A stretch of DNA of 64,000 nucleotides, from contig NZ_JAASQL010000001.1 in NCBI RefSeq assembly GCF_011762155.1, positions 1,798,001 to 1,862,000 of the forward strand, written 5' to 3'. The position numbers and the translations under genes are program-made. Source of the DNA: Wenyingzhuangia heitensis. Lineage in GTDB: Bacteria; Bacteroidota; Bacteroidia; Flavobacteriales; Flavobacteriaceae. Of the stretch, positions 26,159 through 40,818 are shown piece after piece (the first letter of the stretch is position 1; each line of letters starts with the position of its first letter). The notes below the pieces were generated by a model that saw only the letters and a program-made list of their open reading frames with translations, was not told the origin of the DNA and ran no database searches.

Positions 26159-26287
26159 CTGGAGTGAATAAAAGTCCTCCAGCTGTAAATAAAAAGTTCC
26201 TACGCTTATATAAACACAGAGCCCACAGGCTGCTGGAGGACGAAAGTCTTCGAGTGCTTGTGGGCTTTTATGTATTAAACGTAGGAA
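26159..26287 (+). promoter_or_regulatory. strongly folded leader with alternative pairing
   Basis: The 157 bases between the last tail gene and the thymidylate-synthase-like gene contain nested stems: 26197-26204 with 26280-26287, 26207-26214 with 26267-26274, 26220-26227 with 26259-26266, and an apical stem closed by GAC-GAAA-GTC (26239-26248). Together they make a hairpin of about 90 bases with a GNRA loop. Upstream, GTCCTCCAGC (26174-26183) matches GCTGGAGGAC (26232-26241) inside that hairpin perfectly and can also pair with CTGGAG (26159-26164). TGTGGGCTTTTA could act as a weak terminator. The pairings are seen; a switching role is inferred. Confidence 0.65.
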
Positions 26288-26308
26288 TAACAAATATAAA
26301 CTTAAAAT

Positions 26309-26944
26309 ATGAATAAATATCATAAACTACTTAGTGAAATTGTGACTAAAGGAGAGTTGCAAACAAATAAAAAAGGTGCAATAAAGTATATTTTAAATCA
26401 AACATTAGAACTTCAAAAAGGAGATTTGTTGGAGGTGTTTGAAGATCATGCAATAGCTAGGAATAAATTAAAACAAGAACTTGATTTGTTTACACTTGGT
26501 GTTGAGCGAGTTGAGGAATACAACGAAGCTGGTATAAGTTGGTGGAATTACTGCGGTGAAAGGCTTAAAAATTCATATCCAAAGTATTTTGAAAAACTCC
26601 CAGAGCTGATTGATAAAATAAATGAGGAATTAAGAAGTTCTAAGAATTACGTTTTGTTCCTAGGCGAAAATGGAGTAGAAACTAATCAGCAACCATGTGT
26701 AAGTTTGATACAGTTTCAAATAAACAACGGAGAACTATCTATTACTGCTTATTTGCGTAGTTCTGATGCTAGTCTAGGGTTACCATCAGATATTTATCAT
26801 TTATGGCTTATAAGTCGTAAAATAGGCTTGCCGTTAAACAACATAACGTTGATGTTGGCTAATGTACACATATATGAGAATAATCTAACTAATACAAAGA
26901 GGCTTCTAAGAGGAGATAGTGTTAGATTCAGTCTGAATGTTTAA
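26309..26944 (+). CDS. thymidylate-synthase-like protein, possibly dCMP-specific
   Basis: This 211-residue protein matches the ThyA fold over most of its length: an N-terminal YHKLLSEIVTKGE helix, KQELDLFTLG (E. coli Glu58 region), PCVSLIQFQ (nucleophile Cys130), YLRSSDASLGLP (Arg150, Ser151, Asp153) and VHIYENN (His187, Tyr189). At the position of E. coli Asn177 it has Asp161, the residue found in dCMP-specific relatives such as T4 dCMP hydroxymethylase. The phosphate-binding Arg pair is replaced (SKNY) and the family's last about 50 residues are missing. It lies at the right end of the prophage, where Mu carries mom. The family is well supported; substrate and activity are inference. Confidence 0.75.
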   Translation: MNKYHKLLSEIVTKGELQTNKKGAIKYILNQTLELQKGDLLEVFEDHAIARNKLKQELDLFTLGVERVEEYNEAGISWWNYCGERLKNSYPKYFEKLPELIDKINEELRSSKNYVLFLGENGVETNQQPCVSLIQFQINNGELSITAYLRSSDASLGLPSDIYHLWLISRKIGLPLNNITLMLANVHIYENNLTNTKRLLRGDSVRFSLNV

Positions 26945-26949
26945 GTTTA

Positions 26950-26989
26950 TTTTAAACTGCTTTAAAAGACTGTTTAAAGCAGTTTAAAA
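26950..26989. repeat. perfect 17-bp inverted repeat near the prophage right end
   Basis: Arms at 26950-26966 and 26973-26989 are perfectly complementary around AGACTG. They begin six bases after the stop of the thymidylate-synthase-like gene. No T tract follows, so it may be a bidirectional terminator of modest strength or a protein-binding site at the phage end. Confidence 0.75.
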
Positions 26990-27005
26990 TAGATTGTTAT
27001 CTTTG

Positions 27006-27049
27006 GAAAAAATGCACGTTTTGATTTGAAAATTTGTACTTTTTGATTT
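27006..27049. repeat. two adjoining 22-bp repeats, candidate transposase end sites
   Basis: The segments 27006-27027 and 27028-27049 are direct repeats matching at 18 of 22 positions, with common core GAAAA...TTTTGATTT. Mu's right end carries adjoining 22-bp MuA-binding sites R1 and R2. Read from the phage end inward, both contain AAAxGTRCA, similar to the AARYRC core of Mu sites. A weaker copy starts at 27066. They mark the likely attR. Confidence 0.65.
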
Positions 27050-27122
27050 TTCGATTATAATATTTGAAAATTAGAAATTTTAACATAAACTTTGCTATTG
27101 AGAATTTGTTCTAAACATACTT

Positions 27123-39513: not shown

Positions 39514-40818
39514 ATGAAAAATTTAGAAAACGAAGCAAAAAGAGTGCTTTTAGGGAACTGGAAAGATGGATTTAGTGTGCCGTGTGCCAATTTATATCCT
39601 TTTCAATGGAAGTGGGATTCAGGATTTATAGCTATTGGTTTTGCTCATTTTGATATGGACAAAGCAGAAAAAGAAGTAGCTACTTTATTAGATGCACAAT
39701 GGGACAACGGATTTATTCCGCACATTGTGTTTCATACCAAAAGTGACACCTATTTTCCTGGACCAGAGTTCCACCAATCGGAATTGCATCCAGATTCTTC
39801 TAAAAAATATAAGTCTACAGGAATGACTCAACCTCCTGTAACAGGTTTTGTGTTAGAAGAAATGTATAACATTAGCAAAGATAAACCAGCGACGTTGGCA
39901 TATATTAATTCGGTTATCGATAAAGTATATCACAACCATCAGTATTTTTATGAAAATAGAGATCCTCATCAAGAAGGTTTGGTATACATCTATCATAACT
40001 GGGAGTCAGGTACAGATAATTCTCCTATTTGGGATGATATTTTTGCAACCATGAACCCACCACATTATGAGTTTACACGAAGAGATACCACACATGTAGA
40101 TGCTTCGGAAAGACCAACTAACAGAGAGTATGATCATTATTTACATATTATAAACATTGCCAAAGAGCACAATTATAGTGATGAAAAAATAGCGGAATTG
40201 TCTCCGTTTTTAGTACAAGACCCTTTGTTTAATTCGATGTTGATAAAATCTAACGAGGCATTGATCAATTTGTACAAAATGATTGGAGGTAATGATGATA
40301 AAATTAAACAGTTAACGGAATGGAATACCAAATCTGTGCATAGTATGAATACCAAGTTATACGATGAGAATTTGAAAGTATATGTACATTACGATTTAAG
40401 AAATAATAAACCAATTCCTTTTATTACATCTTCTTCTTTTTCTCCAGTATTTGCTAACATTGCTACCCCAGAACAAGTGGAAGGACTTGTTACTGTAATG
40501 TTAGACAAATTTGGAGGAGAAGATAAATACTTGTGTGCTTCTTTTGATCCTACTAATGAACGTTACAATCCTAAAAAATATTGGAGAGGTCCTGTTTGGG
40601 TAAACTTAAATTGGATGTTATACAGAGGATTAAGAAAATATGGATACAGTGAGTTGGCAGAAAGAGTAAAAAAAGATACCATAGAGATTGTAGAAAAAAG
40701 TGGGTTTTATGAGTATTTTGATGCTAGAAAAGAGATACACAATACCGGTAAAGCTGGTTATGGAGGAGGAGACTTTTCTTGGAGTGCTGCTTTGTTATTA
40801 GATATGTTAAAAGATTAA
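39514..40818 (+). CDS. GH63 glycosidase, possible mannosyl/glucosylglycerate hydrolase
   Basis: This 434-residue cytosolic (alpha/alpha)6 enzyme has bacterial GH63 marks: FQWKWDSGFIAIGFAHFD (about 30-47), QWDNGFIPHIVFH, GMTQPPVTGFVL, HNWESGTDNSPIW with probable acid Asp168, and YWRGPVWVNLNWMLYRGL (about 356-373). Bacterial GH63 members of this length include hydrolases of mannosylglycerate and glucosylglycerate, which release glycerate. A glycerate kinase gene lies in the same locus, which supports that substrate. ATG 39514 is chosen because the frame's first ATG (39457) lies before the terminator. Family is clear; substrate is inferred. Confidence 0.8.
   Translation: MKNLENEAKRVLLGNWKDGFSVPCANLYPFQWKWDSGFIAIGFAHFDMDKAEKEVATLLDAQWDNGFIPHIVFHTKSDTYFPGPEFHQSELHPDSSKKYKSTGMTQPPVTGFVLEEMYNISKDKPATLAYINSVIDKVYHNHQYFYENRDPHQEGLVYIYHNWESGTDNSPIWDDIFATMNPPHYEFTRRDTTHVDASERPTNREYDHYLHIINIAKEHNYSDEKIAELSPFLVQDPLFNSMLIKSNEALINLYKMIGGNDDKIKQLTEWNTKSVHSMNTKLYDENLKVYVHYDLRNNKPIPFITSSSFSPVFANIATPEQVEGLVTVMLDKFGGEDKYLCASFDPTNERYNPKKYWRGPVWVNLNWMLYRGLRKYGYSELAERVKKDTIEIVEKSGFYEYFDARKEIHNTGKAGYGGGDFSWSAALLLDMLKD

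Follow-up and report, generated by a model that had tools for sequence, protein, structure and literature searches.

A thymidylate synthase-like gene at the right end of a Mu-like prophage of Wenyingzhuangia heitensis: a possible cytosine-nucleotide enzyme next to a conserved structured RNA

Several enzymes built on the thymidylate synthase (TS) fold offer points of comparison for phage genes annotated as ThyA. In PMC8670742, TS positions 147 and 177 are named as the best discriminators between phage contigs with and without modification, and the replacement of Asn177 by Asp is described as able to shift TS to dCMP, with 5-methyl-dCMP as product; according to its entry, the structure of L. casei TS N229D was determined with dCMP (1njc). 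The dCMP hydroxymethylases, of which gp42 of phage T4 is the reference here, carry a signature that pairs an acidic residue, Asp or Glu, at the third position ahead of the Cys with a Ser-x-Tyr motif, and the mutants D145N and S94N are reported as inactive (PMC6400193). A further comparison is provided by the CMP hydroxymethylases MilA and BcmA, MilA being known here by its published description. As for the genomic context, excerpts of PMC7761591 already remark on a DNA-modification gene at the right end of transposable phages: most putative Bacteroidetes prophages of this type have one among their last ORFs, which is compared there to mom. Neither thymidylate nor ThyA is mentioned in PMC7761591, or in the main texts of PMC12135933 and PMC6199706, and our literature search found no paper on a thymidylate synthase of hankyphage or of Bacteroides Mu-like phages with a methyltransferase.

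The window analysed here, a stretch of 64,000 nucleotides of the W. heitensis genome, contains a Mu-like prophage in which PHROGs recognises a transposase and a DNA transposition protein. Its final gene (26309..26944, plus strand) encodes a protein of 211 residues, hereafter the ThyA-like protein. An earlier note on this DNA, made from the letters alone, had placed the gene at a prophage end, and this was borne out: homology with the copy of a congener stops at 27050..27059, so that the right end, at about 27059, lies 115 bp beyond the stop codon; the left end is only approximate. Past the stop codon but still within the prophage lies an AT-rich inverted repeat (26950-26995, TTTAAACTGCTTTAAA...TTTAAAGCAGTTTAAA), perhaps a terminator or else a site for the transposase, and the two similar stretches TGCACGTTTTGATTTGAAAA and TGTACTTTTTGATTTTTCGA found by the right end (27013-27054) are possible transposase binding repeats. 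The early region of the prophage encodes a BRO-N/anti-repressor protein (354-1073). PADLOC matches to ThsB and AriA (E 0.004-0.006) were taken as chance.

The ThyA-like protein matches the Pfam family Thymidylat_synt (PF00303) with 64.5 bits for a cut-off of 24.3 (E 1.1e-17), and its PHROGs match is labelled 'thymidylate synthase'. An AlphaFold2 model, for which 45 aligned family sequences served as input, reaches a mean pLDDT of 89 and a pTM of 0.88. Its top PDB matches are thymidylate synthases (6auj_C, TM 0.84 on the query length, rmsd 2.9 Å, 21% identity) and its matches among viral models include gp42 of phage Acj9 (TM 0.78). On the basis of this predicted structure, the protein has a TS fold, and its Pfam score makes it a member of the thymidylate synthase superfamily PF00303. 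Comparison of the gene with its copy in Wenyingzhuangia aestuarii revealed 30 synonymous and 4 replacement codon differences (dN/dS 0.028); judged from these codons, it is under purifying selection, and a chance match to the superfamily is excluded by this ratio together with the E-value.

Relatives were gathered in three scans, of which two, on viral sequences, overlap. We kept the best 80 loci each out of 129, 263 and 254 confirmed relatives, and the sample therefore consists of the closer ones. A family ORF was called in 235 of the 243 loci, yielding 158 distinct sequences with the window copy included; the remaining eight comprise the locus of the host ThyA and seven of the family whose ORF was removed by an overlap filter. 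The earlier note had listed ThyA motifs, and alignment confirmed them, Cys130, Arg150, Ser151, Asp153, His187 and Tyr189 being equivalent to E. coli Cys146, Arg166, Ser167, Asp169, His207 and Tyr209. These six, as well as Trp79, Asp161 and Glu57 (Glu58 of TS), are invariant in the 158 distinct sequences, closer relatives as they are; the codon of the catalytic Cys130 is at 26696..26698 and that of Asp161 at 26789..26791, both on the plus strand. HMMER, MAFFT and hhalign all align Asp161 with E. coli Asn177, as had been proposed, and position 131, which is His147 in E. coli, is occupied by Leu, Val or Ile and by His in none of the 158. Both dUMP-specific residues of ThyA are replaced in this family, at the very positions tied to modified DNA in the passages of PMC8670742, which supports the suggested preference for cytosine.

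The phosphate-binding site was also said to have altered arginines, and this holds. The three aligners agree on Lys21, Ser111 and Lys112 in the window in place of E. coli Arg21, Arg126 and Arg127, the last two being invariant (158/158) in a register that may be off by one residue, so that Lys112 (codon 26642..26644, plus strand) could stand at the Arg126 position. Among 40 sampled relatives, the Arg21 position is held by 36 Lys, 3 Arg and 1 Asn. With these arginines replaced by Lys, Ser and Lys, the substrate may therefore differ from an ordinary nucleoside monophosphate. The statement that the protein has no C-terminal closing segment has to be divided. The shortening is real, with 20 residues past Asn191, after the HxY motif, compared to 53 past Asn211 in E. 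coli. The segment is nevertheless not simply absent: the protein ends with V-R-F-S-L-N-V and a stop codon (26921..26944, plus strand), and in all 158 sequences a TS-like F-x-L-N lies one residue short of the C-terminus or at most two residues from that point, with one or two extra residues in 41 of them. The fuller pattern [VI][KR]F-x-LN[VTI] is found in 133 of the 158 and resembles TS tails such as IKAPVAI and IKAEVAV.

Overall, the family shares with bacterial ThyA the fold, the nucleophile, Glu58, Arg166, Ser167, Asp169, His207, Tyr209, the LGLP motif and the tail pattern. It differs by the Asp at position 177, the Leu, Val or Ile at position 147, the replaced Arg21, Arg126 and Arg127 and about 33 fewer residues after the HxY motif, and identity to the E. 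coli and host enzymes is only 23-26%. Among the 40 records listed of 1305 in a phage collection, the lowest E-value outside the family is that of ThyA from the uncultured phage MedDCM-OCT-S28-C10 (AP013540, 26.5% identity, E 3e-12); it also has Asp at 177 but retains the Arg pair, and its gene lies between those of a dTMP kinase and a dCMP deaminase. The 'thymidylate synthase' of hankyphage p00 (DAC76694.1) belongs to the same family: it is 63% identical to the window protein and has the same right-end position and the same upstream RNA (see below), whereas it is followed by an N6 methyltransferase gene and preceded by a DGR reverse transcriptase gene, relatives of neither of which were found in the window prophage. 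A link to the DGR, suggested by hankyphage having both a DGR and an RT-3 RNA, was rejected: with five neighbour reverse transcriptases as queries, blastp matched no ORF of the window prophage. Only 13 of the 55 prophage ORFs have any match in hankyphage p00 and the ThyA-like protein is the most conserved, ahead of the large terminase (47%), an AAA ATPase (37%), a small late protein (34%), MuB (27.5%), MuA (27%) and the portal (24%). The family thus appears constrained about as a housekeeping enzyme is, E. coli and host ThyA being 64% identical.

We then consider the genes that accompany the family. A cluster of D12 N6-adenine methyltransferases is encoded on the same strand in 148 of the 235 loci (75 upstream, 73 downstream), a count that includes contigs met in both viral scans, and 147 of 149 such genes lie within 300 bp of the ThyA-like gene. 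Restricting the count to distinct proteins whose locus extends at least 1.5 kb to either side, which set aside 72 of the 158 for short flanks, left 86 loci. The methyltransferase lies beside the gene in 58 of these (27 upstream, 31 downstream); the 28 without it include the locus from W. aestuarii, whose copy is nearest to that of the window. This neighbour supports a role in DNA modification. No ORF of the window prophage matches the neighbour methyltransferase and no D12 match was found in the whole genome; the pair is therefore not obligatory. The earlier note had likened the position to that of mom in Mu, and the comparison is strengthened by the right-end location, by the methyltransferase neighbours of the relatives and by the remark in the excerpts of PMC7761591. 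A Pfam scan of 16 of the 55 prophage ORFs recognised no nucleotide kinase, dCTPase or glycosyltransferase, and none was noticed among the 40 commonest neighbour clusters, inspected by eye and partly with Pfam. In 395 genomes of the class, the ThyA-like protein occurs in 2 and a related phage terminase in 18. Five genomes, among them that of the window, reach at least 43% terminase identity. The gene is present in two of these and missing from three (G358, G534 and G228, with terminases at 46-58% identity); at the expected right ends of these three prophages, one looks truncated and two carry different tails.

Some observations on the relatives are reported for their own sake. In Bacteroidales phages, a protein of about 80 residues with a helix-turn-helix look and no Pfam match (58 loci, for example L230:4283-4525, cluster 5) is often encoded just upstream of the ThyA-like gene and is a possible activator of the module. 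In five loci (L005, L010, L058, L062 and L064), tracts of 7-10 G resembling those of phase-variable genes lie no more than about 260 bp upstream of the ThyA-like gene, where the preceding gene ends or close by. Three copies of the gene are found in one genome (L110, L112 and L160; CP051546.1) and two in Bacteroides ilei (L122 and L123), so that several such prophages coexist there. Family members labelled as non-Bacteroidota, in a Legionellaceae MAG (L089) and a Fibrobacter MAG (L091), likely come from misbinned contigs.

The most surprising by-product of the analysis is a structured element located between the late genes and the ThyA-like gene, which folds strongly (z -9.1). Folding and a covariance model describe a small RNA of about 121 nt on the minus strand (26170..26290), with helices P2 and P3, a pseudoknot P1 and a U-run end. 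By descriptor and covariation, one P1 strand is in the apical loop (26232..26241, minus strand) and the other, P1', at the 3' end (26174..26183, minus strand), followed by UUUU. Sequence inspection and a box scan place a promoter-like box, TATATTTG, just ahead of the RNA (26291..26298, minus strand); we take it, in its general form TAnnTTTG, to be a -7 box of the Bacteroidota type. Searched for in 80 GTDB loci, the RNA turned up in 71; its strand is opposite to that of the gene, and it precedes either the gene itself or the methyltransferase-ThyA pair. The covariance model R1, built on 12 sequences, accounted for 67 of them (63 at E ≤0.0013 and four at E 0.05-0.09, in the right place) and a descriptor for the other four, two of which were also found by the model in a smaller search. 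The RNA was missing from nine loci, two of which have less than 400 bp of upstream sequence, and it is present in hankyphage at 40550-40685. In 62 model matches (58 distinct rows, four plus-strand shadows included), aligned to the nested helices and not to the pseudoknot, 96.0% of cells pair, and double changes occur in 34 of the 37 pairs (580 cells). The alignment has a covariation score of 0.746, compared to 0.22 for shuffled and at most 0.10 for slid alignments. The eight pairs of P1 are less variable and 95-98% paired, with double changes in five.

Several features indicate the strand that is likely to be transcribed. Of the 67 model hits, 61 have the box TAnnTTTG just ahead of the 5' end when read on the minus strand and none has it on the plus side, for a background of 0.8%; the R1 training sequences, four of which are among the 67, were picked with this box, while the model itself excludes it. 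All 67 hits have UUU at the 3' end, and reading the minus strand of 56 non-redundant RNAs (out of 133) gave a modest excess of G-U over A-C pairs (58 versus 37). We infer that the RNA is transcribed on the minus strand, divergently from the gene. A riboswitch or leader of the ThyA-like gene was rejected: the plus strand is stable too, but the box lies where the minus strand would start. A stricter scan of the 395 genomes of the class gave hits above threshold in four, G395, G228, G324 and G513; the window's own RNA was below this threshold, yet it was matched at E 3.5e-7 in another model search. G395 has the RNA together with the ThyA-like gene. In G228 (L263:5106-5224, minus strand, on the same contig as a phage terminase) and G324 (L264:983-1111, plus strand), the RNA adjoins a D12 methyltransferase gene and the ThyA-like gene is absent. 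The G513 hit, like another in G228, resembles a chance GC-rich repeat. The two methyltransferase loci rule out the RNA as an obligate partner of the enzyme, and the RNA therefore marks the whole module. At gathering threshold, Rfam returned nothing in the window and, in seven related loci, only RT-3 and one tRNA, located elsewhere; at the RNA itself there were only sub-threshold hits. A literature search for such an RNA listed no paper that appears to describe one, so that, as far as this search and Rfam reach, it is previously undescribed. Our guesses are that it controls the module or insulates it from late transcription.

Taken together, these data lead us to propose that the ThyA-like gene encodes a folate-type enzyme of TS fold acting on a cytosine nucleotide, most likely dCMP, within a right-end modification module that helps the phage past restriction, a reading to which we give a probability of roughly 45%. 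In this reaction, Cys130 would add to C6 of the cytosine ring, N3 would be held and protonated by Asp161, and the one-carbon unit of methylene-tetrahydrofolate would be transferred to C5. The product would be 5-methyl-dCMP, which seems slightly likelier, or 5-hydroxymethyl-dCMP. The modified nucleotide might then enter phage DNA during replicative transposition, or alter the nucleotide pool, and the phage would thereby be helped past restriction. In many relatives, though not in this phage, the module would also comprise the N6-adenine DNA methyltransferase, with the divergently transcribed structured RNA lying ahead. Substrate, product, incorporation and protection are what we infer, a protective role for the DNA being suggested by the position of the gene and by its neighbours.

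The parallel with T4 gp42 drawn in the earlier note stands in part, and an enzyme of this type, making 5-hydroxymethyl-dCMP for base replacement or further decoration, is unlikely in our view. The shared features are Asp161 at the place of gp42 Asp179, Lys21 at that of Lys28 and a short C-terminal region, and Acj9 gp42 is among the viral fold matches. The hydroxymethylase signature is missing. In a T4-type set of gp42 and 55 distinct relatives (best 80 of 170 matches), Asp145, Ser94, Tyr96 and Arg123 are present in 56/56 and Arg124 in 55/56, whereas the equivalents of Asp145, Ser94, Arg123 and Arg124 in the ThyA-like protein are Gln127, Pro91, Ser111 and Lys112. Three residues before the Cys, Gln127 is found in 158/158 family members versus Asp in 56/56 T4-type sequences, and Ser-x-Tyr is replaced by Pro91-x-Tyr93 or, in an alternative register, Asn88-x-Tyr90. 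Two of these residues are those whose mutation is reported to abolish activity (PMC6400193), and the kinase and glycosyltransferase searches of prophage ORFs and neighbour clusters also speak against this reading. With hhalign, the family profile aligned over its full length to bacterial TS (score 106, 202 columns, the TS side being three sequences) and over only 73 C-terminal columns to the T4-type set (score 48). From these alignments, the protein looks like an independent TS-derived cytosine lineage, compared to which a T4-type hydroxymethylase seems less likely; dCMP methylation would therefore be at least as likely as hydroxymethylation. Closeness to TS, including the fold and the tail, could be explained by an ordinary accessory thymidylate synthase that raises dTMP in lytic growth. 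This is improbable given the invariant Asp at the Asn177 position, the host's own normal ThyA (G000:C1:924477-925295) and the scores of the NCBIfam TS equivalogs, eight models of which match the protein and none up to its cut-off (at best 50.6 of 174.55 bits; 46.2 of 108.35 bits).

A repurposed nucleotide-binding protein or counter-defence sponge, keeping the TS pocket without catalysis, would fit the altered phosphate site, the accessory position at the right end and a very tight conservation that could reflect a partner; we rank it as unlikely too, after the gp42-like enzyme and before the accessory synthase. The nucleophile, Glu57 and the other catalytic residues, needless in a sponge, are invariant in the 158 sequences, and their retention disfavours a pure binding protein. 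Least probable of all, and remote in our estimate, is a CMP-directed enzyme of the MilA type working on ribonucleotides or RNA, perhaps tied to the adjacent RNA. Asp161 corresponds to the cytosine-type Asp186 of MilA, Lys112 is possibly at or beside the Lys133 position and a structured RNA adjoins the gene; but Ser151 (158/158) stands where MilA has Ala176, the large C-terminal domain of MilA and BcmA is lacking, and the RNA is found next to a methyltransferase gene at loci that lack the ThyA-like gene. A Lys at the Arg126 position is a MilA trait, and a ribose preference had been read by eye from Lys112; it was not retained, as the three aligners place Lys112 at Arg127, one residue away, in a register that could be off by that much.

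Extending the proposed cytosine enzyme beyond this phage, we tentatively suggest, with slightly less assurance than for the window gene itself, that Bacteroidota transposable phages share a right-end module, which would combine the pseudoknotted RNA with the N6-adenine methyltransferase, a TS-derived enzyme of a third cytosine type, independent of both the gp42-like and the MilA-like ones, or both. This enzyme would make a 5-methyl or other C5-modified cytosine nucleotide as a counter-defence, and the RNA would control or assist the module. The label 'thymidylate synthase' given to the hankyphage genes hides an enzyme apparently set up for cytosine, which is more conserved than the phage's own transposase. 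The adjacent RNA offers a marker for finding such modules, as well as a new RNA structure to explain. If cytosine is indeed modified, a mom-like protection based on a different chemistry would exist in common transposable phages of the Bacteroidota, including those of gut Bacteroides.
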